DNA from: Pseudomonas anuradhapurensis
GTDB taxonomy: Bacteria; Pseudomonadota; Gammaproteobacteria; Pseudomonadales; Pseudomonadaceae
Direction: 5' to 3'
Assembly: GCF_014269225.2 (NCBI RefSeq)
Contig: NZ_CP077097.1
Coordinates: 2,553,001-2,617,000, forward strand
DNA length: 64,000 nt
Shown here: in pieces, positions 37,210-55,350 of the stretch
Position numbering within the stretch: the first letter of the stretch is position 1
How the letters are laid out: each line of letters opens with the position of its first letter
Program-made: the position numbers and the translations under genes
Notes under the pieces: model-generated
What the model was told of the DNA's origin: nothing
The model's input: only the letters and a program-made list of their open reading frames with translations
Databases searched by the model: none

Positions 37210-37267
37210 CCGGCTCCCACTTTGGCCGCATCGATCTCAAGCCATGCGCAGCCACTGTGGGAGCCGG
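37210..37267. repeat. Inverted repeat CCGGCTCCCAC...GTGGGAGCCGG
   Basis: Arms of 11 bp with a 36-base spacer. GTGGGAGCCGGCTTGCCGGC is another REP form of P. putida-group genomes. It lies in the gap between atoE and the XRE-cupin regulator. Confidence 0.65.
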
Positions 37268-37360
37268 CTTGCCGGCGATGGCCTGCGCAGTAGCCCCAGC
37301 ATTTCCTTGGCAGTCCACGTATCATTGCCCGGCTGCTTTCGCCTGGGAATCCGCGTTTAT

Positions 37361-37903: not shown

Positions 37904-38051
37904 AGCCACGGAGCCGTAGTGCCCCGGCCGTTGCCTTTCTCAGCGATGAAACGCTATCAGCGCCGACGGAGCACGGGCATGCACAATTTGTCTGTCGTTT
38001 TTTTGACGAATCGCTCGGGCGCCTATTGAATTTTATTATTGTGTCGAATCA

Positions 38052-38080
38052 TTGACGCATTGCCATTGTGCTCATAAGCT
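38052..38080 (+). promoter_or_regulatory. Candidate promoter of the small PEP-CTERM-like gene
   Basis: TTGACG (38052-38057), 17-base spacer, TAAGCT (38075-38080), 73 bp before the ATG at 38154. It lies in a stretch (37990-38150) that is clearly AT-richer than the rest of the window. The -35 is good, the -10 weak. Confidence 0.35.
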
Positions 38081-38153
38081 CAATTCAACAGCGAACAACT
38101 CCTGCACTACCACGCCAATAACTTATTGATTTTCCTCTTTAAAGGAGGGGCGT

Positions 38154-38330
38154 ATGCGCACGGCTCTGATAATCAAATCGATGTCTTTGCTGGCGCTGTT
38201 AAGTGGCGCGGCGCGCGCAGCGGATTTATATATCAACCAGAACAGTGTCATCCCCGTGTCAACCGCAGGTTGGCTGTTTGCCTTTGCCGTCGTTGGTTTT
38301 GTGGCAGTTGCCAATAGAAGGAAGATCTGA
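38154..38330 (+). CDS. Small exported protein with PEP-CTERM-like sorting tail (58 aa)
   Basis: A complete short gene with a very strong Shine-Dalgarno (AAAGGAGG, 6 bases before ATG). Residues 1-22 are a signal peptide (basic start, SLLALLSG core, ARA cleavage site). The mature part is only about 12 polar residues (ADLYINQNSVIP), then IPVSTAGWLF, a hydrophobic helix (FAVVGFVAVA) and the basic end NRRKI. This order, short Pro motif, aromatic W-L-F, helix and final Arg/Lys cluster, is that of PEP-CTERM/VPLPA-type exosortase signals, though Pro-Glu-Pro is degenerate (P-V-S). It stands 230 bp before the exopolysaccharide export genes. No exosortase was seen in the window. An ordinary small inner-membrane protein is the alternative. 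Confidence 0.72.
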   Translation: MRTALIIKSMSLLALLSGAARAADLYINQNSVIPVSTAGWLFAFAVVGFVAVANRRKI

Positions 38331-38351
38331 GCGGCTGCGGCCGCGCCTTCC

Positions 38352-38379
38352 TTGTCAATTTGCCATCCGTTGCTATATT
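38352..38379 (+). promoter_or_regulatory. Sigma-70 promoter candidate for the export operon
   Basis: TTGTCA (38352-38357), 16-base spacer, TATATT (38374-38379): five of six bases match the consensus in both boxes. Predicted transcription start near 38386, giving a 5' leader of about 175 bases with GGA motifs, including one in the ribosome binding site. Confidence 0.55.
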
Positions 38380-38560
38380 GCCAGTAGCCCTTGAAGGTCC
38401 ACGGTTGCTGGCAGCGTAGCCCAGGCTGCACAGCGTCAAGGTGAAGGCCTCCAGGCAGGTGAGGCGGTCGCGGCGGGCGTATGCCGCAATGCGGAGCGAG
38501 CGTTGGTGGGCTGTTCTCATTCAGTGCTCTTCGTCGGGCCTTTGGGCCGGAGGGACCCTC

Positions 38561-39115
38561 ATGGTGCGTTCAATGTTTGCCGCGTTCTGCCTGTTGATGC
38601 TGGGGGCCGGTGCCAGCAATGCCGAACCGAACAGTACCTACCTGCTCAGCCCCGGCGATGTGGTGATGGTTTCGGTGTGGCAGGAAGACAGCCTGCGTCA
38701 GGAAGCCACGGTACTGCCCGATGGCAGTATTACCTTTCCCCTGGCCGGGCGTATCGAAGTTGCCGGGCTGGATGTAACGGCGGTGGAAAAACAAGTGGCC
38801 GCCAAACTCGAGAAATTCCTCCCCGACCCGAACGTCAGTGTGGTCGTCAAGAGCATCGCCGGCAACCTGGTTTATGTTCAGGGCAAAGTGATCAAGCCCG
38901 GGCCGGTACAAATGGCCGGCCCTACTGCAGTGCTGCAGGCCCTGAGCATGTCCGGCGGCCTGGACAAGTTTGCCGATGAAAGCGAAATCAAAGTCGTGCG
39001 GGGTGCCGGCGCTTCCCAAAAAATCCTGCCTGTGCGATATAAAGACCTGGTGTCGGGCAGGGACATGTCCACCAACATCCAACTTAAGGCTGGCGATACG
39101 CTGGTCGTTCCTTGA
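38561..39115 (+). CDS. Polysaccharide export protein, Wza-like OPX (184 aa)
   Basis: Periplasmic/outer-membrane export component. A signal peptide (cleavage near ASNA, residue 21) is followed by the Poly_export domain (about 25-105; YLLSPGDVVMVSVWQEDSLR, VLPDGSITFPLAGRIEVAG) and one SLBB domain (about 108-184; VYVQGKVIKPGPVQMAG). No Cys follows the signal peptide, so it is not a lipoprotein, and it lacks the C-terminal amphipathic helix of Wza; it may need the barrel protein encoded next to span the outer membrane. The ATG at 38561 follows GGAGGG. Confidence 0.93.
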   Translation: MVRSMFAAFCLLMLGAGASNAEPNSTYLLSPGDVVMVSVWQEDSLRQEATVLPDGSITFPLAGRIEVAGLDVTAVEKQVAAKLEKFLPDPNVSVVVKSIAGNLVYVQGKVIKPGPVQMAGPTAVLQALSMSGGLDKFADESEIKVVRGAGASQKILPVRYKDLVSGRDMSTNIQLKAGDTLVVP

Positions 39116-39139
39116 TCTTGCCTTTAATAAGAACACTTA

Positions 39140-40255
39140 ATGCCTCTTCTTAGAACAACTCGCATTGCAACGGCAATCTTGGTCTTGCCATTTACCGACG
39201 CCGCCCTGGCGGCAAATTGGCAGTCGACGGTGGTAGTACCGACCTCCGTCGAATACGACAGCAACCCTTTGCTGCTGTCGTCGGATGAAAAGGGCATAAC
39301 GCGCACGATCATCGCGCCCGATTACACCCTGATCGGCACTTTCGACCGTGATGAATTGCGCTTGGGGCTGGGCATGCATGTCATGCGTTCGTCCGACACG
39401 GCCGTGGTGGACAACCGTGAGGACCCGGATGTGAGCCTGGGCTGGCAACGCCAGACCGAACGTGGGCGCTTTGGCCTGCTGGCGCGCTACAACGAAAGTT
39501 CGACGCTGTCGGGGACAGTGCTGGATACCGGTGTGGTCACCACCGATGGCACGCAGAAGCTCTATACCCTGACCGGCAACTGGAGCCAGGCAGTCACCGA
39601 ACGTAGCACCTTGAGCAACGAGACCACCTACAACCGGGCGCGTTATGACATCAGCACGCTGACCGGTTACGACGAACTGGGCAACGTGTTCACCTGGACC
39701 TACGCCTGGAGCGAGCGGGCCGATGTGTACAGCCGCTTTGACGTGCGCCGCTACGAGCCCGAGCAGGACCAGACGGCAACGGCTTCGAACAGTTACAGCC
39801 CGGCGATTGGCGTCAAGTATCAGTTGTCCGAACGCCTCAGCGCCGATGTCCACGTCGGTGCCACTGAAGTCTCCGGTAACGAAGGCGGTGGGCGTGGCGA
39901 GGGCGGTGTGGCGCTGCTGTACACCGGTGCGCGTGCCCTTGCCAGCTTCACTGCCGAGCGCAGCACGGTGGCCAGCGCCGAGGGCGGCTTCGCCCAGCTG
40001 GACCAGGTGCGCGGTGTATGGAGTTACGCGGTCAGCGAGCTGACCCGGGTGGGGGCGGACGCCGCCTGGCAGGACAGCAAAGGGCAGACACCCAACACCC
40101 TGCAGACCTACAGCGTGTGGGCCAGCCGCGAGTTTTCGCCGTACTGGGACCTGCGCCTGTCGCTGATGTACAAGCAACGGCAGCAGGATCGCGAAGCCGA
40201 TGCGAGCGCTACGATCGTGGGTTTGACGTTGACGTACAGGTACCCCGACATCTGA
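39140..40255 (+). CDS. Outer-membrane beta-barrel protein of an EPS locus (371 aa)
   Basis: Signal peptide (to about ALA, residue 24), then repeated beta-strand-like stretches with alternating aromatic and polar residues, starting VVVPTSVEYDSNPLLL and ending with an aromatic final strand (VGLTLTYRYPDI). The Y/F-D-S-N-P/L start and the position between OPX and PCP genes resemble the outer-membrane barrels (TIGR03016-type) found in PEP-CTERM/exopolysaccharide loci. Likely role: outer-membrane channel or anchor for the polymer together with the OPX protein (inference). Start 24 bp after the OPX stop. Confidence 0.8.
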   Translation: MPLLRTTRIATAILVLPFTDAALAANWQSTVVVPTSVEYDSNPLLLSSDEKGITRTIIAPDYTLIGTFDRDELRLGLGMHVMRSSDTAVVDNREDPDVSLGWQRQTERGRFGLLARYNESSTLSGTVLDTGVVTTDGTQKLYTLTGNWSQAVTERSTLSNETTYNRARYDISTLTGYDELGNVFTWTYAWSERADVYSRFDVRRYEPEQDQTATASNSYSPAIGVKYQLSERLSADVHVGATEVSGNEGGGRGEGGVALLYTGARALASFTAERSTVASAEGGFAQLDQVRGVWSYAVSELTRVGADAAWQDSKGQTPNTLQTYSVWASREFSPYWDLRLSLMYKQRQQDREADASATIVGLTLTYRYPDI

Positions 40256-40274: not shown

Positions 40275-41837
40275 ATGAAGTCTGACTACGAACTGTCCCT
40301 CAGAGATTACATCGCCATTATCAAGGACCGTGCCCTGTTATTGGTGGTGAGTATCGTAGTCATTCTGGCGGCGACCGTCGCAGTCGCGGTGATGGTGCCA
40401 CCGATCTATCAGTCGGCCGGCACCATCCTGGTGGAGTCGCAGCAGATTTCCCCCGAGCTGGTGTCGACCAACAACACCAGCTTTGCCGACGAACGCATCG
40501 AGGTGATTCGCCAACGAGTGATGACCCGCGAGAACCTGCTACGCATCATCGACAAGTACAACCTGTTCGCCGACGAGCGTTTCAGCGAAAGCGACAGGAT
40601 CGACCAGATGCGCAGTGCCATCGTGGTCCAGCCGCTTACCACCTATGTACGCGGGCGGGGGGAAGCGACCGTGGCGTTCAATGTGTCGTTCGAGCACAGG
40701 CAAGCGCAAGTGGCCAAGCAAGTCGCTGATGACCTGGTCACGCTGTTCCTCGACGAGAACCTCAAGCAGCGCACCGAGCGCGCCAACGAAACCACCGAGT
40801 TCCTGACCCAGGAAGCGAACAAGCTGGGGGCCGAACTGGCCAGCCTGGAGAACCAGCTGGCAGACTTCAAGCAGGCCCATGCCAACGCCTTGCCCGAGCA
40901 CCAGACCCTGCGCATGAACATGCTGTCGCGCTCGGAGCTGGAATTCCGCGAAGTCGACCGCGACTACAAGGCCGCCCAGGAAGAGCTGCGTTACCTGGAG
41001 CTGGAATTGTCCGCGGCCAATGCCGGGCTGGCCACCAAGGTTGGCGAGGGCCCGCGGGCGACGACTGCCGACGAGCCCCAGGACCTGCCAAGCCTGAAGG
41101 CCGAGTATGCCCGGCTGCTGAGCCGCTACAAGGAAGCCCACCCCGACGTGGTGGCGGTCAAGCGCAAGATCCAGGCACTCCAGGCCAGCGGCAACGCAAC
41201 AGCGGCGGTTTCCACCGGCAACCTCGATGCCGCGCGCGTGCGGGCCAAGATCAGCGCGGCACAGGAGCGCATCGCGTCGCTGGCCGAGCAAAAACGCGAA
41301 CTGACCAGGAAGATGGAAGGCTACGAGGCCGAGATTCTCGAGGCGCCGCAGGTCGAGCGTGGCCTGGTGACCTTGATGCGTGACCATGACAACGCGCGCA
41401 AGAAGTACGAGGAAATCCGTGCCAAGGAGATGGGCGCGAAGATCACCGAGAGCCTCGAGCAGGAAAACAAGGCCGAGCGCTTTGTGCTGCTGGAACCACC
41501 GCTGCTGCCCGAGAAGCCGATCAAGCCCAACCGCAAGAAGATCGCCGCCCTGGGCCTGGTGCTGGCACCGGCCGGGGGTGGTGCGCTGGTGATGCTGCTG
41601 GAAATGTTCAACCAGCGTATTCGCGGCGTCGGCGCCCTGGAGAACCTGCTGGGCAGACGCGTGCTGGTGGCGCTGCCATACATCGATACCAAGGCCGACG
41701 TGGCCCGGCGCAAGCGTTGGCGCAACTGGCTGTTGCTGGCGGCGCTGGTACTGGTGGCTATCCTGATGGTGCTGGTGCACGTGTTCTACCTGCCACTGGA
41801 TGTGCTGTTGTTCAAAGTCATGTCTCGGTTTGCATAA
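40275..41837 (+). CDS. Polysaccharide chain-length determinant (PCP/Wzz family, 520 aa)
   Basis: Inner-membrane co-polymerase that sets chain length. First helix about residues 20-42, then the Wzz domain (PPIYQSAGTILVESQQ), a long periplasmic coiled coil (about 165-335, heptads rich in Glu/Leu/Lys) and a second helix about 483-505. The layout matches the PEP-CTERM-locus PCP type, which lacks a cytosolic kinase domain; the kinase is encoded by the next gene. Segment EAPQVERGLVTLMRDHDNARKKYEEI is the usual GNVR-like region (residues about 355-380). Confidence 0.92.
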   Translation: MKSDYELSLRDYIAIIKDRALLLVVSIVVILAATVAVAVMVPPIYQSAGTILVESQQISPELVSTNNTSFADERIEVIRQRVMTRENLLRIIDKYNLFADERFSESDRIDQMRSAIVVQPLTTYVRGRGEATVAFNVSFEHRQAQVAKQVADDLVTLFLDENLKQRTERANETTEFLTQEANKLGAELASLENQLADFKQAHANALPEHQTLRMNMLSRSELEFREVDRDYKAAQEELRYLELELSAANAGLATKVGEGPRATTADEPQDLPSLKAEYARLLSRYKEAHPDVVAVKRKIQALQASGNATAAVSTGNLDAARVRAKISAAQERIASLAEQKRELTRKMEGYEAEILEAPQVERGLVTLMRDHDNARKKYEEIRAKEMGAKITESLEQENKAERFVLLEPPLLPEKPIKPNRKKIAALGLVLAPAGGGALVMLLEMFNQRIRGVGALENLLGRRVLVALPYIDTKADVARRKRWRNWLLLAALVLVAILMVLVHVFYLPLDVLLFKVMSRFA

Positions 41838-41848
41838 GGAAAGCAGCG

Positions 41849-42655
41849 ATGGACGGGACCAAGCCGGCTGTTGGCCACACGCTTCACCCGGTGACCCCGG
41901 GTACCCCGCAGGCATTGTCTCCAGCCCCTGGCACGGCGCTGAGGGAAATGCCTGGCGAGTTCGACTACGTCAACACCAAGGTGGTGCCGCTGCGCGCCGA
42001 GCACCTGGAGCGTCACCGCATCGTCGCGTACAACAAGAACTCCAGCATGAACGGGCCGATCGACCTGCTGCGCACGCAAGTGCTCAGGGCGATGGACGAG
42101 AATGGCTGGCGCACCCTGGCCATCACCTCGCCAACGCCTGAAGCGGGCAAGACCGTGCTGGCCATCAACCTGGCCATGAGTATCGCCCACCACACCACCA
42201 GGACTGCATTGCTGGTGGACTTCGACCTGCGTCGGCCCAAGGTCGGCAGCAGCCTGGGCCTGCCCATGGAGCAGTCATTGAACGAGTTCCTGAGCGACCA
42301 GGCCGAGTTGCAGGACTGCCTGGTCAACCCGACGCTGCCACGCTTCGTGGTACTGCCCACGCGGGTGCCGGTGCCGATGTCCACCGAAATGCTGTCGTCG
42401 CCCAAGGTGAGCAACCTGGTCAGCGACCTGCGCAACCGCTATGAGTCGCGCATCTGCATTTTCGATTTGCCACCGTTGCTCAGCTCTGACGATGCGATCA
42501 CCGTGATACCCAAGTTCGATTGTGTATTGCTGGTGGTGGCCAACGGCATGAACAACAAGAAGGAAATCGAGGATTGCCTGCACCACCTGGCCAGGGTGAA
42601 CCTGGTCGGCACGGTGTTGAACAAGGCAGACGAGCAACCGCGAACCTATTACTGA
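41849..42655 (+). CDS. Bacterial tyrosine autokinase of the EPS system (268 aa)
   Basis: BY-kinase that controls the PCP. Walker A SPTPEAGKT at about 94-102 (an Ala in place of the usual Gly), Walker A' LLVDFDLRRP at 121-130 and Walker B ICIFDLPPL at 202-210. The C-terminus ends RTYY, a very short version of the Tyr cluster that is phosphorylated. Start ATG at 41849, 11 bp after the PCP stop, with AAGGAAAG upstream. Resembles the CpsD/CapB and PEP-CTERM-locus tyrosine kinases. Last gene of the forward export module; convergent with galE. Confidence 0.88.
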   Translation: MDGTKPAVGHTLHPVTPGTPQALSPAPGTALREMPGEFDYVNTKVVPLRAEHLERHRIVAYNKNSSMNGPIDLLRTQVLRAMDENGWRTLAITSPTPEAGKTVLAINLAMSIAHHTTRTALLVDFDLRRPKVGSSLGLPMEQSLNEFLSDQAELQDCLVNPTLPRFVVLPTRVPVPMSTEMLSSPKVSNLVSDLRNRYESRICIFDLPPLLSSDDAITVIPKFDCVLLVVANGMNNKKEIEDCLHHLARVNLVGTVLNKADEQPRTYY

Positions 42656-42715: not shown

Positions 42716-43690
42716 CTAGCGCTGGCGCATCAGCCATGGATACTGCAACTCCCACTGCCACGCATGCCGCACGATCTGTTCCAGCTCGGCAAACTGCGGG
42801 CGCCAGCCCAGTACACGCATGGCCTTGCCAGCATCCGCCACCAGCCGCGGCGGGTCGCCCGCACGGCGCGGGGCATCGAGGCTGCGAATCCGTCGGCCGG
42901 TCACGCCACCGGCGGTATCGATAACCTGCTGCACCGAGAAGCCCAGCCCATTGCCCAGGTTGAACGCGGTGCGTTCGCCACCTGCCAGCAGGTAATCCAC
43001 CGCCAGCGCATGGGCCGTCGCCAGGTCGGCCACATGCACGTAGTCGCGGATGCAGGTGCCATCCGGCGTGTCGTAGTCGCGGCCAAACACCGTGATCGCT
43101 TCACGCCGGCCCGAAGCGGCCTGCAGGATCAGCGGGATCAGGTGGGTTTCCGGGTCATGGCATTCCCCCAACTGGCCCTGCGGGTCAGCGCCGGCGGCGT
43201 TGAAATAGCGCAGGCACACCGACTTCAGGCCGTAGGCGCGGTCGAAGTCCTCGAGAATCTGTTCGACCATCCACTTGCTCAGCCCATAGGGGTTGATCGG
43301 CCCCTTGGCATGCGCTTCGTCGATCGGCACATACTGCGGGTTACCGTAGACGGCAGCGCTGGAAGAAAACACCAGGTGCCGTATGCCGGCATTGACCATG
43401 GCCTGCAGCAGGCTGAGGGTCGCCGCGACATTGTTCTGGTAGTACTTGCCGGGCACGCTGACCGACTCGCCCACCTGGATGTACGAGGCAAAGTGGAACA
43501 CCGCATCGAAGCGGCAAACAGCGAACAGCACATCCAGGGCCGGCTCGTCGGCGATGTCCAGTTTCGCCCACTGCACACCAGGGCTGGGTGAGACCAGATC
43601 GGCCACTACCACCTCATGGCCAGTACCGAGCAGATGCTTGACCATGTGCGAGCCAATGTAGCCTGCGCCACCGACAACCAGAAACTTCAT
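42716..43690 (-). CDS. galE: UDP-glucose 4-epimerase (324 aa)
   Basis: NAD-dependent extended SDR that interconverts UDP-glucose and UDP-galactose. The cofactor motif GGAGYIGSH is at residues 7-15, the catalytic pair Ser and Tyr is in SSSAAVYG and NPYGLSKWMVE (Y-x-x-x-K), and RYFNAAGADPQGQLGE and GTCIRDYVHVADL are diagnostic of GalE. The start at 43690 is the normal family start. It provides UDP-galactose for the polymer. Transcribed against the export genes, after the glycoside hydrolase gene, in the order wzy-hydrolase-galE. Confidence 0.93.
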   Translation of the reverse strand: MKFLVVGGAGYIGSHMVKHLLGTGHEVVVADLVSPSPGVQWAKLDIADEPALDVLFAVCRFDAVFHFASYIQVGESVSVPGKYYQNNVAATLSLLQAMVNAGIRHLVFSSSAAVYGNPQYVPIDEAHAKGPINPYGLSKWMVEQILEDFDRAYGLKSVCLRYFNAAGADPQGQLGECHDPETHLIPLILQAASGRREAITVFGRDYDTPDGTCIRDYVHVADLATAHALAVDYLLAGGERTAFNLGNGLGFSVQQVIDTAGGVTGRRIRSLDAPRRAGDPPRLVADAGKAMRVLGWRPQFAELEQIVRHAWQWELQYPWLMRQR

Positions 43691-43798
43691 CCAAGCCTCC
43701 TGGACTCTGCTGTTGTTCAGCCGCAGTGAATCATCCCTGGTCAAGACCGGGCGGGCGCTTCAGCTACAGGTCTGTTTGAGGGTAGATGGCCATATGCC

Positions 43799-46417
43799 CT
43801 ATTTCAAGAACAGCCAATTGGACATGTACTGGCCATCGAAGGTGATGCGGTAATGCCCATCCTGGTAGGCCACGGGCAAGGCCTTGAGTTGTGCCGCTGG
43901 CTCCCGGGCGTACAGTTTCAGGCCAGCAGGCGCCTTGATGTTCAAGGTGCCGGCAAGCGGCTCGACGTTGAACGCTGTGTTGGCATCGGCTTTGGGCATG
44001 GCCCGGGTGCCCAGCGACACCAGCAGCTCGCGCGACTGGCCCAAGGGGCGACCGTCCAGGCTTTGCACCACGACGCTGGCATAGGGTGTCTGTGCCTGCA
44101 CCTGGATGGCGTCAAGGCTGATCGAGCGGCCACCCAGCCAACCGCTGGCGGCTTGGGTCAGCGCGGTGTCGATGGTGTAGATGCCTTGTTGCCAGTTGCG
44201 TTTGAGTTCACCCGTGTCGGTAACTGCCTCGTTGGCGTTGGCCGCCAGCAAGGCTTGCCCCGGGTCGTTCAGCACCTGCGCATCGGCCGGGATGGCGGCA
44301 GGTTTCAGCCAGGGCAGTTCCGGCGTTTGCGGCAGGGCGATCTGCAATTGGCCCTTTTCCATGGCCGTGCGCAGCAGCACGGAATTGCGCGGGGTGATTT
44401 CCTGGCCGTACAGCGTGGCAGGCGTCGGTGCGAACACGTAACGGGTGGTGGCCGGGTGCACGTCCGCACGGCGGTAGAGCAGGGCGGCAGCGGGCAGGGT
44501 AGCGAGCATCGCCGGGTCGTTGTAGGCGTGCCAGTTGTCCGCCGTGCGCCAGCCTGGATTGAAGGCTTGCTGGCTGTAGGCATACTGCAGCATGGCGTCC
44601 CAGCCCTGGTGGCTGGCGGTAGCGGCCACATACAGCGGCAACGAATGACGATCGGGCAGCGGGAAGGGCTCGGCGTTCCACTCGCTGACGGTCATCGGCT
44701 TGCCGACCACCTGGGCGGCAGCGAGCCAGTCGATCATGCCGTCGCTGGTCAGTGGGTTCTTCTCCAGCTGGCCATTGGCGCCGTAGCTGTGGGCATCGAT
44801 TACATCGCCTGCGCTCAGCGCTGGCAGCGCACTCAGGCCATTGCCGCCCCAGGTGCTGGTGGTAGCGATCGGTACTTTCACGCCGAGGTTGCGCAGGTGC
44901 GCAATCATGTCGGCATTGAAACGTTGTTCCAGGTCGTTGAGGAACAGCTTCGACGGGCCATGCTCCCAGGCATGCCAGGTAAGGTCGCTCGGCAGCCCAT
45001 GCTGGCGGGCGAACGCCTTGGCAGCGTCCATGTAGCGTGCGCTGTGGCGGGGCACGTCCTTGTCTGGCAGCAAGGCGTTGCCGTAGTGCTGGGTGAGGTC
45101 GTCCTCGTTGGTGATCAGCACCGCGGCAATCGCCGGGTCATCCTTGTAGGCCAGGCCGGTGTACGGGTTCACATGGCCCAGGTACTGCTCGGCAAAGCGC
45201 TTCATGGCCTGCTGGATGCTGCGGTTGACATAGGCGTAGCCCTTCAGGTCGACATGATCCTGGCCCTTGGCGATCTCCTGGAAGTCGTCAATGTCGTCGT
45301 TGGCGGTAAGCGCGCGCTGGACGTGCATGTCCAGCCAGACGTAGATGCCTTCGTCCTTTAGCGCCTTGATCCACAGGTCGAGCTTGCGCATCGACTCGGC
45401 ATCGAGTTGGCGGGTATCGCGTACCACGGTGGCGTCGCCGAACACGTTCGGGCTGACCCACGGCGAGTCGTGGTGGTGCAGGCGTACCAGGTTGAAGCCC
45501 AGCGCCGACAGGCGCTTGGCCTGGTGGCGGATTTCTTCGTCCGGGCTTTTGAACAATGCATAGGCGGACAGGTTGGTACCCCAGAAGCGCGCCGGGGTGT
45601 TGTCCTCGAACAGCAGCTGTTCGCCGACAGCCCTGACGAAGCCGCGCTTGCCCGCGGGCTTTTCCGCAGCGTTGAGGAACGACAGGTCGACCGGCGAGGT
45701 GCGCCAGTCCAGATGGTCATCCGGCCAACGGTTGGGGTCGGTCAGGCCGAAGCGTTCGCTGGGCGTAGGCCCCAGCTCGATGTCACCGCTGACGTTCAGT
45801 ACCGCCTTGATCTGCTGCTGGCCGGCGTTGATCGGGTCGCCGTAGAGAAACGCACGCAATTCGGACGGGTTGCCGCGCTCGAAATACACCTTGGCCAGCG
45901 GCGGGTCGAAGCGCATCTCGATGCGTCGACCCTGCTCAGCCTTGCCCCACGACCAGCCACGGTTGCCGGGCAGCAACTGCGGCGCCCCCATGCCCCCGGC
46001 AATTTGCCCCGGGTCGAACTGGAACACCATGCCACCGCCCATCACCCCGGCCTGGCGACTGTGCGCGGCAAGGTCGAAAACCCAGCTCAGGGTTTGCGCC
46101 TGCTCCTTGCGTATATCCGCCGCCAGGTCGAAATCCAGCGCCTTGTTGCTGCCCTGCAGCGTGTAGTGGTAGGGGCCATTGACCTTGACCGCGGTGTCGA
46201 AGCCGGTCCAGCTCCAGTTGGCCGCCCAGAAGTCGAACTTGGCTTTCATCACCGGCCCGCCGCCGAGGGTCACCATGGGCAGGCCATTCTGTTCATCGAC
46301 ACTGACTTGCCACGCCGATGCCCAGCCGCCAGATGGCAGCAGGGCCAGGCCGGCCAGGGCCGAAACGCGCAGGGTTTGCATGGCCGAGCGGCGCAGCAGA
46401 AGCAGGTTCATAGGCAT
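43799..46417 (-). CDS. Secreted glycoside hydrolase, clan-A (GH5-like) fold (872 aa)
   Basis: Signal peptide (MQTLRVSALAGLALLP core, cleavage near WASA), an N-terminal beta-rich domain to about residue 250, then a TIM-barrel domain. Clan-A features: Asn437-Glu438 (ITNEDD) as acid/base and Glu579 (VSEWNAEPF) as nucleophile, plus RLHHHDSPW on strand 2. A C-terminal beta domain follows. Probably cuts or edits the exopolysaccharide made by this locus in the periplasm or outside. The start shares one base with the Wzy-like stop (TAATG), so it is coupled to it; the exact family is uncertain. Confidence 0.82.
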   Translation of the reverse strand: MPMNLLLLRRSAMQTLRVSALAGLALLPSGGWASAWQVSVDEQNGLPMVTLGGGPVMKAKFDFWAANWSWTGFDTAVKVNGPYHYTLQGSNKALDFDLAADIRKEQAQTLSWVFDLAAHSRQAGVMGGGMVFQFDPGQIAGGMGAPQLLPGNRGWSWGKAEQGRRIEMRFDPPLAKVYFERGNPSELRAFLYGDPINAGQQQIKAVLNVSGDIELGPTPSERFGLTDPNRWPDDHLDWRTSPVDLSFLNAAEKPAGKRGFVRAVGEQLLFEDNTPARFWGTNLSAYALFKSPDEEIRHQAKRLSALGFNLVRLHHHDSPWVSPNVFGDATVVRDTRQLDAESMRKLDLWIKALKDEGIYVWLDMHVQRALTANDDIDDFQEIAKGQDHVDLKGYAYVNRSIQQAMKRFAEQYLGHVNPYTGLAYKDDPAIAAVLITNEDDLTQHYGNALLPDKDVPRHSARYMDAAKAFARQHGLPSDLTWHAWEHGPSKLFLNDLEQRFNADMIAHLRNLGVKVPIATTSTWGGNGLSALPALSAGDVIDAHSYGANGQLEKNPLTSDGMIDWLAAAQVVGKPMTVSEWNAEPFPLPDRHSLPLYVAATASHQGWDAMLQYAYSQQAFNPGWRTADNWHAYNDPAMLATLPAAALLYRRADVHPATTRYVFAPTPATLYGQEITPRNSVLLRTAMEKGQLQIALPQTPELPWLKPAAIPADAQVLNDPGQALLAANANEAVTDTGELKRNWQQGIYTIDTALTQAASGWLGGRSISLDAIQVQAQTPYASVVVQSLDGRPLGQSRELLVSLGTRAMPKADANTAFNVEPLAGTLNIKAPAGLKLYAREPAAQLKALPVAYQDGHYRITFDGQYMSNWLFLK

Positions 46418-47943
46418 TACCCGGTTTGAAGGGCTGAGCCGGCCAGCTCGCTGACCTGGCTGTCGTGAAGCCGCCGTACCATCTGGCTATAGCCCACGCC
46501 CAGCCCGGCGATCGTCCAGTACACCACTGGGATGAAGGTGATGCTGCTGACGGTGAAGATGATCACCAGGATGCCGGCCAGCGTCGCCAGCAACGCTCGG
46601 CCGAGCTGGCGTCGCTCGTCGTCCTTGTCGGGGAAACTGCGCATGGCCTTGCGCAGGCCGAGCAGCACGCTGGCGAAGAACGCCAGGAACAGGCCGAGCC
46701 CGACCAGCCCGACCCGCAGCGCCACATTGATGTAGGTGTTGACGATGTCGATGATGCCTTCACCCTGGATCATCGATTGCATTTCCGGGGTATTGCGGAA
46801 ATCGAACGAGCCGAACAGCGGGTTGCGCTGGATGACGATCCACGCATTGTCCATCAGCCGCTCGCGGTAGGTGATGTTGTCCTTGTCCACGTTGCCGATG
46901 TACGGCAGCAGGTCCAGGACCTTGTCGCCACCGGGCACGGCGGTCAGCAGGGGCAGGGCCAGCATGCCGGCCGCAGCCAGCAGTGCCAGGCGCCTGAGCG
47001 CACCTTTGCCGAGGGCGACGAATACCACAACGATGACCATGGCCCCGATCCACGGGCCGCGCGACAGCGGCGCGAACAGCCCGGCGGCCAGCAGCAGGGC
47101 TCCCATCAAACGCTGCCAGGGGCGGCGTACGTAACCCTGGACGAAGAGGAACAGGCCAATGGCCACGCTCATCACATAACCCAGCACAATGGCCTGCCCG
47201 GTGGTGACACTGGCGCGCAGCGAACCGCCGCGGTCCAGGTAGCCGGACATGCTCCATGGCACGCCCATGGCGTCGACCAGGGCACTGTACAGCAGCCAGT
47301 GGCGCACATACTCGGCGACACCGATCAGGGCCAGCAGGAAGGAGGCGAGCACGAAGGCCAGCAGGGTGTCCTTGAAATCGCTGATCTGGCGCAGGCCACG
47401 GCTGGCCACGTAGTACGGCAGGAGCACGTCGATATACAGGTAAAACGTCTGGCGCAGGGTGTCGGTCAGGGTGGTTTCGCGCAGGTACAGCACGCTCATC
47501 AGCAGCAGCTCCGCCGCCAGCAGCCTGTCGGGCCAGGTGCGGCCGAAGCGCAGGGTGTCGCCTTGGCGGCGCAGGGCCAGCGCTGCCGGCAACAGCACGC
47601 ACACGCTCAACAGGCGGATATGGTTGAGTTCGACCAGGAAGTTGACCAGGCCGAACCCCGGCACCTGCAGCGAAGCCGGCGGGATCAGGAACAGCAGCAG
47701 GTAGAACAGCGCCATGGGGTTGTGCTCGCGGCGCCCGGCGATGTACAGGATGACTGCGCCTGCGCCCAGGTACAGCCAGAAACTGTGCGAGAAGAAGGCC
47801 AGCAGGGTCAGCAGGAACCACAGGTTGCGCCGGCGCTTGAAGTCGCGCAGCGGGATAAGGTCGCAGGCAGGCCGCCGGGCCAGCAGAAAGACCACGCTAG
47901 CCAGGAACAGGATGACGATCAACGCACGCAAATGTTCAGGCAT
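46417..47943 (-). CDS. Wzy/O-antigen-ligase-like exopolysaccharide polymerase (508 aa)
   Basis: Inner-membrane protein with about twelve hydrophobic segments and a large periplasmic loop after the ninth, holding the Wzy_C-like stretch SRGPWIGAMVIV and later NPLFGSFDFRNTPEM. This fits the O-antigen ligase/polymerase family. It would join repeat units at the periplasmic face. It is the first gene of the minus-strand operon; its start at 47943 faces the flippase gene across 92 bp. Confidence 0.85.
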   Translation of the reverse strand: MPEHLRALIVILFLASVVFLLARRPACDLIPLRDFKRRRNLWFLLTLLAFFSHSFWLYLGAGAVILYIAGRREHNPMALFYLLLFLIPPASLQVPGFGLVNFLVELNHIRLLSVCVLLPAALALRRQGDTLRFGRTWPDRLLAAELLLMSVLYLRETTLTDTLRQTFYLYIDVLLPYYVASRGLRQISDFKDTLLAFVLASFLLALIGVAEYVRHWLLYSALVDAMGVPWSMSGYLDRGGSLRASVTTGQAIVLGYVMSVAIGLFLFVQGYVRRPWQRLMGALLLAAGLFAPLSRGPWIGAMVIVVVFVALGKGALRRLALLAAAGMLALPLLTAVPGGDKVLDLLPYIGNVDKDNITYRERLMDNAWIVIQRNPLFGSFDFRNTPEMQSMIQGEGIIDIVNTYINVALRVGLVGLGLFLAFFASVLLGLRKAMRSFPDKDDERRQLGRALLATLAGILVIIFTVSSITFIPVVYWTIAGLGVGYSQMVRRLHDSQVSELAGSALQTG

Positions 47944-48035: not shown

Positions 48036-49412
48036 ATGCCGTCGATTGATGTGTCAGCCGCCGCGAGCCTGCGCAAGCGGGCCCTCAAGGCCGGGTCGTG
48101 GAACCTGGTCTCGCAGGTGGCGTCACAAGCGATGCGCCTTGGCGGCAATCTGCTCATGGCCCGCCTGCTGGTGCCGGAAATGTTCGGGGTGATGGTCATT
48201 GCCAACACCGTTTCGGTACTCCTGCATCTGTTGTCCGATGTCGGCCTGCGGCAGAACATCGTGCAGAGCCAGCGCGGCGATGACCCGCAGTTTCTCAATA
48301 CCGCCTGGACGGTGCAGATCATCCGCGGCCTGGTGCTGTTCGTCCTGACCGTACTGCTGGCCCTGGCGGCCTGGCTTGCCCAGCGCGCCGAGGTGTGGCC
48401 GGCAGATTCCACCTATGCCGAACCCGAGCTGCCGATGGTGCTGGCGGCCACCGCGCTGTCGGCGGTGATCTGGGGTTTCCAGTCCACCAAGATAGATGTG
48501 GCTGTGCGCACTTTCCAACAGAAGCGCGTGGCGCTGGTCGACCTGGCCTCGCAAGTGGTCGGCCTGGTGGTGATGCTGGTGCTGGGTTACCTGACCCACT
48601 CGGTCTGGGCACTGGTCATCGCCGGCCTGGTGTCGGCCCTGGCCTGGACCCTGTTCGGCCATACTGTTCTCGAGGGGCCGCGCAACCGCCTGCAGTGGGA
48701 CCGCAGTGCGTTGAACGAATTGATCGTGTTTGGCCGCTGGATCCTGTTGTCGTCGATGGTGGGTGTGCTGGCCATGTACGGTGACCGCATCTGGTTCGGT
48801 GCCAGCATGACGACGGCGCAACTGGGGGTCTATTCGATTGCCGTACTCATCCTGGGTGCGGTGCAGACCGCACTGATGAAGATTTTCGGGGCGGTGGCGC
48901 TCCCCGCCTTCAGCGAGGCAGCCCGGGCCGGCGACCAGGAGCGCCTGAAGGCGTTGTATCACCGCTTCCGCCTGCTGGTCGACCTGCTGGTACTGTTCAT
49001 CTGTGGCGGGTTCCTCACTGCCAGCCCGTTGCTGATCGGCTGGATGTACGACGACCGCTACCGTGAAGCTGGCCCGATGCTGGCTATTCTTTCGCTGTCG
49101 TTCCTCACATTGCGCTATACCTTGGCACACCAGGTGTGGATTGCCCTGGGCCTGACCAAGTACCAGGCCATCGACAACATCATCCGCCTGGTCTCGCTGT
49201 GGGGGCTGCTGCCGTTGTTGCTGATGCTTGGTGGCGTGGACTGGGCGATCTGGGGGGTGGCACTGCACACCCTGCCGACGCTGGTGCTGATCGTGTACGT
49301 GAATTGCAAGCTGGATATCTTCAGCCTCAAACGTGAGCTGATGGTGCTGCCGATGCTACTGATCGGCGCGCTTTGCGGGGCGCTGCTGACAGCCTTTTTC
49401 AACTGGCTGTGA
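48036..49412 (+). CDS. Wzx-type polysaccharide flippase (458 aa)
   Basis: MOP-superfamily transporter (Polysacc_synt) with about twelve hydrophobic segments. Motifs near the start (LKAGSWNLVSQVASQAMRLGGNLLMARLL, residues about 17-45) and LGVYSIAVLILG in the middle are typical of lipopolysaccharide/teichoic acid flippases. It would move undecaprenyl-linked repeat units to the periplasm. First gene of the long forward operon. Confidence 0.9.
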   Translation: MPSIDVSAAASLRKRALKAGSWNLVSQVASQAMRLGGNLLMARLLVPEMFGVMVIANTVSVLLHLLSDVGLRQNIVQSQRGDDPQFLNTAWTVQIIRGLVLFVLTVLLALAAWLAQRAEVWPADSTYAEPELPMVLAATALSAVIWGFQSTKIDVAVRTFQQKRVALVDLASQVVGLVVMLVLGYLTHSVWALVIAGLVSALAWTLFGHTVLEGPRNRLQWDRSALNELIVFGRWILLSSMVGVLAMYGDRIWFGASMTTAQLGVYSIAVLILGAVQTALMKIFGAVALPAFSEAARAGDQERLKALYHRFRLLVDLLVLFICGGFLTASPLLIGWMYDDRYREAGPMLAILSLSFLTLRYTLAHQVWIALGLTKYQAIDNIIRLVSLWGLLPLLLMLGGVDWAIWGVALHTLPTLVLIVYVNCKLDIFSLKRELMVLPMLLIGALCGALLTAFFNWL

Positions 49413-49454: not shown

Positions 49455-49649
49455 ATGGACAAGTTGACTTTTTGTGCTGGGCAGTTGGGGCGCAGGGGCT
49501 TTATCCAGAGTTGTGTCTTGCTGGGCGTCGGCGGGGCAGTGTTCGCTACTGCTACAGCCATTGCCAGCGAACGTGGCGGCAAGCGCGGGCACGTGCTGAT
49601 CAATGGCTGGGTGTTGCCGTCCCGTTACTTCCGGAACGAGCAAGCATGA
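49455..49649 (+). CDS. Tat-signal mini-protein coupled to the GMC oxidoreductase (64 aa)
   Basis: The product starts with LGRRGFIQS, a twin-arginine motif (RRxF), followed by a moderately hydrophobic core (VLLGVGGAVFATATA) and a likely cleavage site near IASE. What remains is only about 25 basic/polar residues ending SRYFRNEQA. The ATG at 49455 is chosen for the position of the Tat motif. Its stop overlaps the ATG of the GMC gene (ATGA). By analogy with gluconate dehydrogenase, where a small Tat subunit carries the flavoprotein partner, it may export or anchor the oxidoreductase that lacks a signal of its own (inference). Confidence 0.65.
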   Translation: MDKLTFCAGQLGRRGFIQSCVLLGVGGAVFATATAIASERGGKRGHVLINGWVLPSRYFRNEQA

Positions 49650-51112
49650 TCAAGGATTACCAACAGCAGAAGACCCTGCGCGACAGCTACGACGTCTGCA
49701 TCATCGGCGCTGGCCCGGCCGGCATCACCCTGGCCCTGCGCCTGGCTGCCGCTGGCTGGCGCGTGCTGCTTGCCGAAGGGGGCGGGCGCGAGTATTCATC
49801 GCTTTCGCAAGACCTGTATGCCTGCAAGTCCACCGGCCTGGAGCTGTATGCCAAGGAGTCCCGCCTGCGTTACCTGGGTGGCACCTCCAACCACTGGGCA
49901 GGCCGTTGCAGGCCGTTCACTGCCTCGGATTTCGCCCTTCCGCCGATCGGTGGCTTGCCTGGCTGGCCGATCCCCTATGCGGAAATTGCCAGCTACCTGC
50001 CTGCCGCCATGGACATCGTCGACTTGCCACCTGGGTCGGATTTCGAGGCAATCAACAGCGGGCTCGGTGGCGACGAATTCGAACCGGACCGCTTCCTGCT
50101 CAGCCCGCCCACGCGGTTTGCGCAGAAATACGCCGCCGCCCTTGAGCAGACCGACGGCCTGGACGTGTTCATCAACTGCAATTGCGTGGACCTGGAGTAC
50201 GACGAGGCCACCGGCAGCCTGGCTGCGGTGGTCCTGTCCGATTACCAGCGCAACCGCCAGCGCCTGGTGGCGAGAACCTTCGTGCTGGCCACCGGCGGCA
50301 TCGAGAATGCCAGGCAACTGCTCAACAGCGAATCGTTGCTGAGTGCGGGCATCGTGAGCAAGGATGGGCTGGTCGGGAGCTGTTTCATGGAGCACCTGAA
50401 CATCGACCTGGGCACCTTCATCCTCAAGTCGGGGCTGGCCCCGGAGCCACGCGAGTACTTCACCACCGATACCTTCATTGACGCGTACAAGGCCGGCAAG
50501 GGCAATGTCAGGGCCGCCCTGTTGGCCGAAGTGCAGACCTACGGGCGCACGGCCGAGGTCAAGAACTTTCTGGAAAACCTGGCCTGCGACATGGGGGTCG
50601 CCAGCAAGATCGCCTTCGTCGCCCGGTTCAGTTGCCCCGGCGACGGCCTCATCAGCACCCTGATCGAACAGTTCCCCAACCTGCACAGCCGCATTTCGCT
50701 GCTGGACGAGAGGGACGCGCTCGGTGTCGCCAAGGTCAACGTCAACTGGGCCCTGACCGCTGATGACCGGCACACCATCAAGTGCATTGGCAGTGAACTG
50801 GCCAAGCAATGGGCCGACACCGACCTGGGTTTCATCAAGCTCAATGACTATGTCTATGACACCTCGATACCGCTGAGGATGTCGCCACATGCCCACCACA
50901 TGGGCACCACGCGCATGGCGTCCTCCGCACAAACCGGTGTCGTCGACCGCGATTGCAAGGTGTTCGGGATTGCCAACCTGTACATCGCTGGCAGCAGCAT
51001 CTTCGCAACCGGCGGTGCCTCCAATCCGACCTTGCCGTTGCTGCAGTTTGCCTTGCGCCTGGCCGACCACCTGGATGCCAGGATGAGCGCGGCCAGGGAT
51101 GCTATGGGGTGA
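49646..51112 (+). CDS. GMC-family FAD-dependent oxidoreductase (488 aa)
   Basis: Flavoprotein with dinucleotide-binding motif CIIGAGPAGITLALRLAAAG at residues 18-37, the RYLGGTSNHWAGRC block, and the GMC C-terminal domain (HAHHMGTTRMASS with the catalytic His region, and GASNPTLPLLQFALRLADH). It lies among sugar transferases, so a sugar or sugar-alcohol is the likely substrate. No signal peptide is seen. Coupled to the Tat mini-protein gene. It could oxidise a hydroxyl of the polysaccharide or an intermediate; the substrate is unproven. Confidence 0.87.
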   Translation: MIKDYQQQKTLRDSYDVCIIGAGPAGITLALRLAAAGWRVLLAEGGGREYSSLSQDLYACKSTGLELYAKESRLRYLGGTSNHWAGRCRPFTASDFALPPIGGLPGWPIPYAEIASYLPAAMDIVDLPPGSDFEAINSGLGGDEFEPDRFLLSPPTRFAQKYAAALEQTDGLDVFINCNCVDLEYDEATGSLAAVVLSDYQRNRQRLVARTFVLATGGIENARQLLNSESLLSAGIVSKDGLVGSCFMEHLNIDLGTFILKSGLAPEPREYFTTDTFIDAYKAGKGNVRAALLAEVQTYGRTAEVKNFLENLACDMGVASKIAFVARFSCPGDGLISTLIEQFPNLHSRISLLDERDALGVAKVNVNWALTADDRHTIKCIGSELAKQWADTDLGFIKLNDYVYDTSIPLRMSPHAHHMGTTRMASSAQTGVVDRDCKVFGIANLYIAGSSIFATGGASNPTLPLLQFALRLADHLDARMSAARDAMG

Positions 51113-51217
51113 TAAACGTTGTGAACGGGTTGAGTGCGTTGCGGTCAGCACCCACAAGAACGAGACCGGATGCGCCTCAGGAACAGTCCAGATTGCTTAG
51201 AGTGCGAGGCTGGCAGC

Positions 51218-51835
51218 ATGAAGGGATGGATACGCAAGGCCGTGGCGCAGTTTGTCCATGCAACCGGGCGCGGCAGCTCGTTCTACCGCAGGTTTTGCAG
51301 GCCCACAGCGCTCGAGTGGGGCGCGTACCTCAGCCGCTGGGGCAACTTTCATTCGGTGGGCAGCCACTTTCACGCCAACCCAGGCAGCAAGTTCCTCGAC
51401 CCTTCATTGGTGCGTATCGGCAACAGTGTGGGCCTGGCCGACTGCACACTGATCGGTCATGACGGGGTGGTATTGCTGATCGAGCACCGCTTCGGCAAGC
51501 ACCTGGATTCGGTCGGCTATATCGACATCAAGGACAACTGCTTCATCGGCCATGGCGCGATCATCATGCCGCGCGTGACCATCGGGCCGGAGTCGATCGT
51601 CGCCGCCGGCGCGGTTGTGACCAAGGACGTGCCGCCAGGCACGGTGTTTGGTGGCAACCCGGCAGAATTCATCTGTACCACCGAAGAGTTGATCAAACGG
51701 GTCGAGGCACGTTGCGAAGCCTACCCGTGGATCGACCTGGTCAAGCAGCGCAACGGCGCCTATGACCCCGAGCTGGAGCCGCTGCTGATGGCGCAACGGC
51801 GCCAGTACTTCTTCGGGGATGGCAGCAATGGCTAG
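51218..51835 (+). CDS. Left-handed beta-helix acyltransferase (205 aa)
   Basis: Hexapeptide-repeat transferase (WcaF/xenobiotic acetyltransferase-like): repeats such as SLVRIGNSVGLADCTLIG and CFIGHGAIIMPRVTIGPESIVAAGAVV, followed by DVPPGTVFGGNPAEF. It probably O-acetylates the exopolysaccharide repeat unit. The start at 51218 (MKGWIRKAV) follows GAGG; longer starts at 51170 or 51134 are possible. The stop lies within the start of the next glycosyltransferase gene, so it belongs to the same operon. Confidence 0.85.
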   Translation: MKGWIRKAVAQFVHATGRGSSFYRRFCRPTALEWGAYLSRWGNFHSVGSHFHANPGSKFLDPSLVRIGNSVGLADCTLIGHDGVVLLIEHRFGKHLDSVGYIDIKDNCFIGHGAIIMPRVTIGPESIVAAGAVVTKDVPPGTVFGGNPAEFICTTEELIKRVEARCEAYPWIDLVKQRNGAYDPELEPLLMAQRRQYFFGDGSNG

Positions 51836-52784
51836 CAAACCGGTCGATGTCCTGGTGGTCAACTTCAACACGGCCGGGCTGCTGCAGCCGATGTTCGATG
51901 CGCTGCGCCGGGCCGACGGCGAACGGCTGGCCAACTACCTGGTGGTGGACAACGCCTCGGTGGATGACTCGCTGCAGCGCATGGCCACGGTGTGCCCGCA
52001 GGCGCTGTTGCTGAGCAACAAGCACAACGTGGGTTTCGGCCGGGCCAACAACCAGCTGCTGGCGCACCTGCAGGGCAAGTACGCCTTGCTGCTGAACACC
52101 GACGCCTTCGTGGCTGCCGACTCCTTGCAGAAGACCCTCGAGTACATGGAGGCGCACCCCGAGTGCGGCGTGCTGGGTGTGCGCCTGGAGGGCCGCGACG
52201 GCGATCTGCAGCCCAGTTGCCGCTACTTTCCGACACCGCTCAACGTGTTTGTCGGGCGCACCGGGCTGGGGCGCTTGTTCCCGGGGCTGAAGATGGTCGA
52301 CGAGATGGACTGGGACCACGCATCGGTGCGCGAATGCGACTGGCTGCCTGGCTGCTTCTACCTGGTGCGCCGCGAAGTGCTCGACCAGGTGGGGCTGTTC
52401 GACCCGCGCTACTTTCTCTATTACGAAGAGGTCGACCACTGCAAGCGGGTGAAGGCGGCGGGCTGGAAGGTGGTGTTCTACCCGCACACCACAGTGGTGC
52501 ACATCGGTGGCGAGAGCTCGCGCTCGGTCGCCGAACTGGAGGCAGCCAGCCGGCAGATCTCGGCGTACCAGATCGAAAGCGAACTGCTGTACTTTCGCAA
52601 GCACCACGGCTTGGCCGGGCTGGCCCTGCACATGCTGCTGGTGACCCTCGGCGACCTGGTGCTGGCACTCAAGGCGCTGTTGAAACGACGCGGCTGGGGC
52701 GCGATAAGCGCCTGTTGGCGTCACTGCCGGGCGACCTGGTCACTGTTGTTCAAGACCCGGTACGCCAGCCAACCGACAAGGTAG
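51828..52784 (+). CDS. Glycosyltransferase family 2, rhamnosyltransferase-like (318 aa)
   Basis: GT-A fold enzyme. N-terminal VDVLVVNFNTAGLLQPMFDALR, then VVDNASVDDS, the NVGFGRANNQ block and LLLNTDAFV (DxD-like), then LPGCFYLVRREVLDQVGLFD and YYEEVDHCKRVKAAGWKVVF, all like WbbL-type rhamnosyltransferases. A short hydrophobic C-terminal stretch may touch the membrane. The ATG at 51828 has GGGGA 8 bases upstream; an ATG at 51819 in the same frame is also possible. It overlaps the end of the acyltransferase gene. Confidence 0.9.
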   Translation: MASKPVDVLVVNFNTAGLLQPMFDALRRADGERLANYLVVDNASVDDSLQRMATVCPQALLLSNKHNVGFGRANNQLLAHLQGKYALLLNTDAFVAADSLQKTLEYMEAHPECGVLGVRLEGRDGDLQPSCRYFPTPLNVFVGRTGLGRLFPGLKMVDEMDWDHASVRECDWLPGCFYLVRREVLDQVGLFDPRYFLYYEEVDHCKRVKAAGWKVVFYPHTTVVHIGGESSRSVAELEAASRQISAYQIESELLYFRKHHGLAGLALHMLLVTLGDLVLALKALLKRRGWGAISACWRHCRATWSLLFKTRYASQPTR

Positions 52785-52792
52785 GTGGAGCC

Positions 52793-53317
52793 ATGTTCGA
52801 AAATGTACGTGCCGACCTGCGGGCCCATGGGGGCGACTGGGGTGCCCAGGGCTTCTGGGTATTGCTGGTGTACCGCTTCGGCCGCTGGCGCTATGGCGTG
52901 CGCCCGGCACCGCTGCGCAAGCTGTTTTCGCTGCTGTACAAAGTGTTGTTCAAATGCGTGCAAATCCTCACCGGCGTGGAGTTGCCGTGCGAAGTGGTGA
53001 TTGGCCGCAACTTCGTCATCGACCATTTTGGCGGCATCGTGATCAGCGGCTATGCCCGGTTTGGCGATGACTGTCGCATCCGCAACGGCGTGGTGGTGGG
53101 CCTGAAGAACGTCAGCGAGCCGATTGCACCGGTGTTCGGCAACAATGTCGATATCGGCAGTGGGGCCAAGGTGCTGGGCAGCATCCGCATTGGCAACAAC
53201 GTGGTGATCGGTGCCAATGCCGTGGTGCTGGTGGATGTGCCGGACAACTCGCTGGCGGTAGGGGTGCCGGCCACCATCAAGGCCCGGCAAGTGGCCAGCA
53301 CGGTGCCGGTCGAGTGA
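52793..53317 (+). CDS. Serine acetyltransferase-like hexapeptide transferase (174 aa)
   Basis: An alpha-helical start (FENVRADLRAHGGDWGAQGFW) and then a left-handed beta-helix (VVIGRNFVIDHFGGIVISG, NNVDIGSGAKVLGSIRIGNNVVIGANAVVL, with DVPDNSLAVGVPA). Such CysE-like proteins in polysaccharide operons acetylate sugars rather than serine. The ATG follows GGTGGAG and starts 9 bp after the previous gene; the stop overlaps the next ATG. A second acyltransferase of this operon. Confidence 0.87.
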   Translation: MFENVRADLRAHGGDWGAQGFWVLLVYRFGRWRYGVRPAPLRKLFSLLYKVLFKCVQILTGVELPCEVVIGRNFVIDHFGGIVISGYARFGDDCRIRNGVVVGLKNVSEPIAPVFGNNVDIGSGAKVLGSIRIGNNVVIGANAVVLVDVPDNSLAVGVPATIKARQVASTVPVE

Positions 53318-55314: not shown

Positions 55315-55350
55315 CAGCTGAGGCTACTGCGGCGGGTCAGAAGGTTCATC

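Follow-up and report, generated by a model that had tools for sequence, protein, structure and literature searches.

EppA, a 58-residue protein of Pseudomonas exopolysaccharide loci, as a probable remnant of an XrtD substrate

Main finding

A 58-codon gene, eppA, stands at the head of an exopolysaccharide (EPS) locus in the window (the whole 64-kb stretch of DNA analysed here). Comparison across the genus provides good support for an origin of its product, EppA, as an XrtD substrate that was orphaned by its exosortase and shrank to a signal peptide and a sorting tail. Our main reading, to which we assign a probability of roughly 0.6, combines this origin from an XrtD/VPLPA-type substrate with a present role in which the uncleaved tail would stay in the membrane and aid the EPS machinery. 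What the sequences themselves show is homology to longer proteins, a recurrent gene order, joint occurrence with the locus to which the gene is constantly linked, the loss of xrtD and purifying selection.

The eppA gene and its product

The window holds an unbroken 58-codon frame that encodes MRTALIIKSMSLLALLSGAARAADLYINQNSVIPVSTAGWLFAFAVVGFVAVANRRKI and is preceded by AAAGGAGGGGCGT (both read from the window sequence, Table 1). A first-pass annotation had credited this frame with a strong Shine-Dalgarno sequence and no interruption, and direct reading agrees; a GGAGG is found no more than 20 nt from the start codon in 37/44 short and 19/23 long forms of the gene (see below), with near variants elsewhere. 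The protein matches the NCBIfam model NF046088 (‘EPS-associated small membrane protein EppA’) over residues 1-58 of 58 with 119.6 bits against a curated cut-off of 90 bits, and is therefore a full-length member of a family that NCBI has already named. Hence the earlier remark that the gene is too short for gene finders holds in part only, as an NCBI equivalog model covers it. A 58-codon gene scores above the NF046088 cut-off in 44 of 398 genomes of the genus without a single indel, which is far beyond chance and confirms eppA as a real gene. No EppA match was found in the plasmid and phage collections.

Judged by eye, the N-terminus of EppA resembles a Sec signal peptide, being hydrophobic and ending in an AxA site (A20-x-A22 followed by A23-D24) whose A20 and A22 are invariant in 44/44 short forms. 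The tail consists of P-(x5)-W-L-F, a hydrophobic stretch and RRK. Alignment of this tail with the PEP-CTERM and VPLPA profiles, which the first-pass annotation had proposed as a check, came out negative: TIGR02595 (PEP-CTERM) gave no match at E<=10 at the place of eppA, and an NCBIfam scan of the window’s EppA gave none to TIGR03370 (VPLPA-CTERM), so that neither domain is present above cut-off. The tail of its homologue in genome G240 reaches 25.0 bits with TIGR03370, just short of the cut-off of 25.35. Across the 67 EppA genomes the first proline of the motif is kept in 61 and replaced in 6, and the second is kept in 9. Two candidates for other PEP-CTERM proteins in the source genome (E 1.15 and 2) were both below the cut-off and were rejected.

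Table 1. Positions of eppA, its parts and the neighbouring genes in the window.
Feature	Position	Strand	Evidence
FleQ-type box GTCAAAAAAACGAC, start 160 nt 5′ of eppA	37994..38007	-	sole match to the consensus with <=2 mismatches in the 64-kb window
Shine-Dalgarno AAAGGAGG	38141..38148	+	read directly; GGAGG in 37/44 short forms
eppA, exported micro-protein, 58 aa	38154..38330	+	NF046088 match; purifying selection
Signal peptide, residues 1-22, likely signal-peptidase site between ARA and AD	38154..38219	+	A20, A22, A23, D24 invariant 44/44
C-terminal tail, residues 34-58: P, W-L-F, hydrophobic helix, VANRRKI	38253..38327	+	invariant residues, 67/67
OPX polysaccharide export protein	38561..39115	+	PF02563, SLBB; closest NCBIfam TIGR03027, below cut-off
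Outer-membrane barrel-like protein	39140..40255	+	weak PF13505, below cut-off
PCP / Wzz-type chain-length determinant	40275..41837	+	PF02706; TIGR03007 238.5 bits, cut-off 278.85
Tyrosine autokinase	41717..42655 (frame limits)	+	TIGR03018 143.3 bits, cut-off 230.65
NAD-dependent sugar epimerase/dehydratase	42716..43744	-	PF01370, PF16363
GH5-like glycoside hydrolase, 872 aa, locus marker	43799..46417	-	PF00150; in 66/398 genomes, all with eppA
Wzy/O-antigen-ligase-like polymerase (Wzy_C)	46417..47943	-	PF04932
Wzx-type flippase	48036..49412	+	PF13440
GMC-type oxidoreductase	49643..51112 (frame limits)	+	PF05199
Acetyltransferases and glycosyltransferases: hexapeptide, GT2, hexapeptide, GT2-DUF535, GT4, GT2, WecG	51134..58513	+	
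Undecaprenyl-phosphate sugar transferase	58691..60109	+	TIGR03023 465.8 bits, cut-off 410.75

The EPS locus and the distribution of EppA

eppA is the first gene of a presumed operon and is separated from the OPX gene by 230 nt. The first-pass annotation had tied the gene to an EPS locus of the kind that accompanies exosortases, and this is supported: the closest NCBIfam models of the OPX, the PCP and the kinase are XrtA-system ones, all matched below their curated cut-offs. The sugar transferase was found in 67/67 EppA genomes; that of the window is 73% identical to its G240 homologue, which lies 3′ of xrtD in that genome. One frame of the window (53314-55314) fuses a GT2 domain to a DUF535 domain.

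EppA was found in 67 of the 398 Pseudomonas genomes, 44 times at full length over the NF046088 cut-off and 23 times below it. The 23 weaker matches cover model positions 17-29 to 58 only and sit at the end of longer frames, the longer orthologues of the window protein. The GH5-like locus marker occurs in 66/398 genomes, every one of which has EppA; among the 332 genomes lacking the marker, G240 alone has EppA, and this is an incomplete MAG (77% complete) whose contig ends inside OPX. Two copies of the marker were seen in G264 (C1 2712621-2715176 and 4828630-4831188).

The suggestion that the gene might always be next to OPX held for 48 of 50 tabulated related loci, in which no other recognised locus gene intervenes between EppA and the OPX gene 3′ of it. 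It failed for the other two (G228 and G079), where the cluster is rearranged with OPX at its far end; there eppA and OPX face each other from opposite ends of the cluster. OPX is also present in each stretch retrieved from the remaining 17 EppA genomes, which lie outside the adjacency table.

Long forms and the origin of the short form

EppA has exactly 58 codons, with no indel, in 44 genomes and 114-218 residues in 23, the start codons of the long forms having been picked by hand from the frame and the ribosome site. The sizes form a series, from 218 aa in G240 and 205 aa in G204 through nineteen proteins of 154-165 aa to 141 aa in G079, 114 aa in G228 and finally 58 aa. Long forms carry a signal peptide similar to that of EppA and VPLPA-like tails such as NAVPLPAAAWLFSSALFGFIVVANRRKI. 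Aligned by eye, EppA DSYINQNSIIPVSTAGW (as found in several relatives) corresponds to G240 GSYVNQLNPVPLPAAAW, which indicates that the 58-aa form consists of the signal peptide, the last ~11 mature residues and the tail; a 12-row alignment also brings those ~11 mature residues together. Between the G240 protein and that of G204, identity is 48% across 222 columns, and PEP-CTERM-like proteins of the same order but of different families match the mature part of the G240 protein, at best with 41% identity (E 1.2e-20). Therefore, the domain was lost rather than gained.

A tree of OPX and the N-terminal part of the barrel protein was built with 67 tips and rooted on G240, which contributes only ~133 OPX residues and no barrel. 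All 44 short forms group in a single clade with a support of 93, and the remaining long forms, 22 without G240, make up a second (support 74), in which G204 branches first and the next node has a support of 83. As the short forms are monophyletic, a single reduction produced the 58-aa form. Size series and alignment thus place EppA in descent from a protein with a PEP-CTERM/VPLPA-CTERM tail, and the homology to the long forms vindicates the initial idea of a sorting-type substrate pared down to signal peptide and tail. Were EppA just a small peptide of the inner membrane with a fortuitous likeness to a PEP-CTERM tail, the missing PEP-CTERM and VPLPA-CTERM profile matches in the NCBIfam scan would be expected. 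However, it is homologous to long forms with VPLPA-like tails, among them the 218-aa protein encoded beside an intact XrtD, and relatives retain remnants of xrtD (see below); size series and gene order together refute a chance likeness, and we give it next to no credence.

Loss of the exosortase

The absence of an exosortase from the window, noted at the outset, extends to the whole source genome: its single contig of 5.39 Mb contains no match to PF09721 (E<=0.001), TIGR02602 or TIGR04178 (both E<=1). The window’s EppA therefore shares its genome with no exosortase recognised by these three models, and an intact XrtD is present in only 1/67 EppA genomes. This is G240, whose XrtD contains an EpsI domain, scores 556.9 bits against a cut-off of 400 and belongs to the same locus as the 218-aa PEP-CTERM-like protein; on the contig, XrtD is followed by a TPR gene, an ATPase gene and the sugar transferase, after which come the 218-aa protein and then OPX. 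A search of the 67 genomes with the G240 XrtD protein found no intact XrtD in the other 66. Weak matches (E 0.004-0.08) in ten other EppA genomes hit other parts of the protein in unrelated frames and were taken as chance.

Across the genus, TIGR02602 was matched over its cut-off in 1/398 genomes (G240), with weaker matches in 12 others. Two of these 12 genomes carry EppA, and their matches, in G128 (23.3 bits) and G311 (17.4 bits), were rejected on reading their frames, without a family scan, as chemotaxis-receptor-like and pentapeptide-repeat-like, respectively. Eight EppA-negative Pseudomonas genomes reach 43-55 bits; these were set aside, the two examined (G180 and G333) being exosortase Q over its own cut-off. 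G240 also encodes, on contig C391 (26-30 kb), a second exosortase (TIGR02602, 144.9 bits), XrtB-like by reading, with a separate EpsI-like gene, and near it two PEP-CTERM-type proteins whose tails read VPEPETYAMLL..RRRK and VPLPGAAILML..HRRHR. This genome, which is assigned to Pseudomonas, thus has two neighbouring exosortases.

For remnants of xrtD, ~4 kb 5′ of the sugar transferase were searched in 43 of the 67 genomes, including the window, G079 and G228. Three of the 43 stretches contained a remnant on the right strand. G079 keeps the last 29 residues at 76% identity (E 2.9e-9), with ~50 nt between their end and the sugar transferase. The remnants in the other two are short: G204 retains the last 20 residues (65%, E 0.002) with an internal stop, and G135 retains 18+14 aa in two frames (E 3e-4) just before the sugar transferase. 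Directly after the G204 remnant follows a TPR gene that is still intact, with 72% identity across 801 residues, and in G228 there is a TPR remnant of 34 residues (E 0.001). The decoy control, with 21 queries, gave one match at E 0.021. In the other 39/43 stretches, that of the window included, no trace of xrtD or TPR was found at E<=0.05. These remnants place XrtD in the locus of the ancestors of several species that now lack an exosortase; by sequence, XrtD has been lost in the Pseudomonas lineages examined. The TPR gene of G204 (L205 1417-3888) is PrsT-like (TIGR02917, 296.8 bits, cut-off 312.2) and has stayed intact despite the decay of xrtD beside it.

Since no exosortase able to cut EppA was found, the peptide of about a dozen residues that had been expected after exosortase cleavage is unlikely to be formed.

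Selection and the fate of the tail

All dN/dS values given here pool non-independent pairs. The pooled value for the short forms is 0.075, from a set that is near saturation (dS 1.76) and yields no separate estimate for the 11-residue mature part. For 51 close pairs of short forms dN/dS is 0.10 overall, with 0.074 for the signal peptide, 0.187 for the mature N-part and 0.082 for the tail. The corresponding pooled values for the 22 long forms without G240 are 0.43 for the signal peptide, 0.50 for the middle and 0.10 for the tail, and 51 close pairs of long forms give 0.61, 0.51 and 0.15. In the long forms, the tail is constrained while body and signal peptide are not, or only loosely, so the tight conservation of the signal peptide is a feature of the short form alone. 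Moreover, W40, G48, F49, A53 and N54 are invariant in 67/67 short and long forms. A permutation test for a single conserved face along the helix of the tail gave no significant result (p 0.05-0.21 for three choices of limits).

These data bear on whether EppA is still of use. The ‘relic substrate’ proposed at first was right about origin, given the XrtD locus of G240 and the remnants in G079, G204 and G135, but a useless relic is contradicted by the pooled dN/dS of 0.075 and by 44/44 intact 58-codon frames. The loss of the exosortase and of the globular domain is what a functionless gene on its way out would show. However, purifying selection is strong, every frame has stayed intact since one ancestral reduction, and EppA is present in 66/66 genomes with the GH5-like marker; selection and co-occurrence largely refute a dying relic, which we consider very improbable. 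That selection still acts on the remnant hints at a separate task for the sorting tail.

Under a rival reading, the tail is still cleaved. An unrelated intramembrane protease (a rhomboid, CPBP or other) may have taken over from the exosortase, in which case a periplasmic peptide of ~11 residues would be released or re-anchored. The tripartite architecture of the tail has been retained, myxosortase is an unrelated protease that serves such tails (according to PMC11980579), and the source genome encodes a rhomboid-like protein. The last of these says little, because its match to TIGR03902 (55.7 bits) is below the cut-off of 84 bits and 14/14 control genomes also match this rhombosortase model below cut-off; no rhombosortase exceeds the cut-off in the source genome. 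Moreover, the VPLPA motif has decayed at its second proline far more than at its first (9/67 and 61/67 kept), the mature N-part that would be released is the least constrained of the short form in close pairs, and no protease is among the family matches of the locus genes scanned. A takeover of this kind seems unlikely to us, if worth keeping in mind.

Under the reading we favour, EppA would be all that is left of a PEP-CTERM surface protein of VPLPA type, formerly the substrate of an XrtD encoded in the same EPS locus. XrtD was lost in the lineages examined and the globular domain decayed, selection keeping the signal peptide and the sorting tail. Today the first gene of a FleQ/c-di-GMP-controlled EPS operon would yield a 58-residue precursor, from which signal peptidase I would take off residues 1-22. 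With no exosortase cut, the tail would remain as a 36-residue single-pass inner-membrane peptide, its N-terminus periplasmic and its ANRRK end cytosolic. It may then assist the machinery for EPS polymerisation and export as a small accessory subunit, with the PCP, Wzy or the kinase as its partner, making contact through the invariant W-x7-GF-x3-AN motif. We infer its topology, lack of cleavage, partner and effect on EPS from these patterns, and the naming of a partner among the EPS proteins is a guess. A role at the polymerase/PCP complex is favoured because so minimal a tail peptide could hardly bridge matrix and cell.

The upstream region

With at most two mismatches to the P. putida FleQ consensus (taken from PMC6120874), 0.12 sites would be expected in the window and a single one was found, 5′ of eppA. 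Allowing three mismatches, a FleQ-like box lies within 300 nt of eppA in 39/67 genomes (28/44 with the short form and 11/23 with a long form), compared with 3.9% of 1340 shuffles. In 37 of these 39 genomes, the start of the box and the start codon 3′ of it are 149-163 nt apart. The best box at eppA of G240 has 5 or more mismatches. In strain KT2440, PMC6120874 places a ChIP-seq FleQ peak upstream of the export-protein gene PP_3126, near the pea locus, which would fit FleQ control of the eppA locus if PP_3126 is the same OPX. Control of the eppA operon by FleQ is suggested by the position and recurrence of the box. Scans of 37800-38700 returned one sigma-70-like promoter site (38352-38379, between eppA and OPX) and one terminator-like site within eppA, each at chance level. 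An HTH regulator gene lies 5′ of eppA (37244-37903); it is present in some relatives and was not found within the ~1.5 kb examined in others.

Its shortness, its place at the head of the presumed operon and its distance of 230 nt from OPX would also suit a regulatory leader, the translation or nascent peptide of which controls OPX downstream. Against this, selection acts on the amino acids of the signal peptide and the tail, long forms of up to 205 aa occupy the same place in genomes without XrtD, and in G228 and G079 eppA is apart from OPX. Moreover, an Rfam scan of 37500-39200 gave no match at E<=1. We regard a leader function as improbable.

Relation to known systems

The ancestral system would be XrtD/VPLPA-CTERM (TIGR04152, TIGR03370), for which G240 has an XrtD over the cut-off and a tail just below it. 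EppA differs from it in that, among the EppA genomes, an exosortase was found in G240 only, the tail motif has decayed and the short form lacks a mature domain. PepA, a flocculation-associated PEP-CTERM protein (NF033554), shares with EppA an EPS setting; it sits beside prsT and, unlike EppA, has a globular domain. The five long forms scanned against NF033554 matched weakly (E 2e-4 to 0.009), far below the cut-off. In another bacterium, PMC9850573 describes a shift of polysaccharide from soluble to bound upon PepA overexpression. Rhombosortase/GlyGly-CTERM and myxosortase/MYXO-CTERM have in common with EppA the tripartite tail architecture, whereas their signature motifs are different.

Exosortase systems are known chiefly through genome comparison and, to our knowledge, the reason why they travel with EPS loci is still open. 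We tentatively suggest, at somewhat less than even odds, that a PEP-CTERM tail is not just an address label for the exosortase and that here it acts as an uncleaved transmembrane module docking on the EPS secretion machinery. If true, this would explain why the tail has outlived both the enzyme and the body of the protein. Tails of intact exosortase systems might then also contact the EPS machinery, giving a physical reason for the association of exosortases with EPS loci (PMC1569441). The natural series described here, with the enzyme gone and the tail under selection, separates the tail as label from the tail as working part, and makes the distinction testable in ordinary laboratory strains of Pseudomonas. 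Moreover, a small family that had a name but no explanation gains an origin, and its place behind a FleQ-type promoter box in a polysaccharide locus is now marked. In the part of the literature open to our searches by licence, we found no published work on the EppA family, nor any account of its descent from a substrate of XrtD, of remnants of xrtD or of selection centred on the tail. Searches of the same scope gave no matching paper for VPLPA-CTERM together with exosortase or exosortase loss, and nothing relevant by title, among the matches listed, for EppA with exopolysaccharide.

Occurrence in other collections

Within genomes of the order, the 218-aa G240 protein was matched in 34/293 (the source genome included) at E<=0.001, many of them by the tail only. 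By tblastn, the four best loci from outside the genus contained no EPS-locus genes except for one weak TPR match, and one of these loci is only 5.3 kb long; for these reasons no ancestral gene order was drawn from them. A collection of named records, separate from the 398-genome set, contributed 59 loci. Here the full 58-aa protein was matched in P. monteilii, P. fulva, P. parafulva, P. capeferrum WCS358, P. entomophila, P. mosselii and P. taiwanensis, and the tail only in strains of P. frederiksbergensis, P. mandelii and P. fluorescens. The 58-aa eppA also occurs in two records titled Pantoea sp. (Ap-967 and Cy-639), the names of which are probably wrong.
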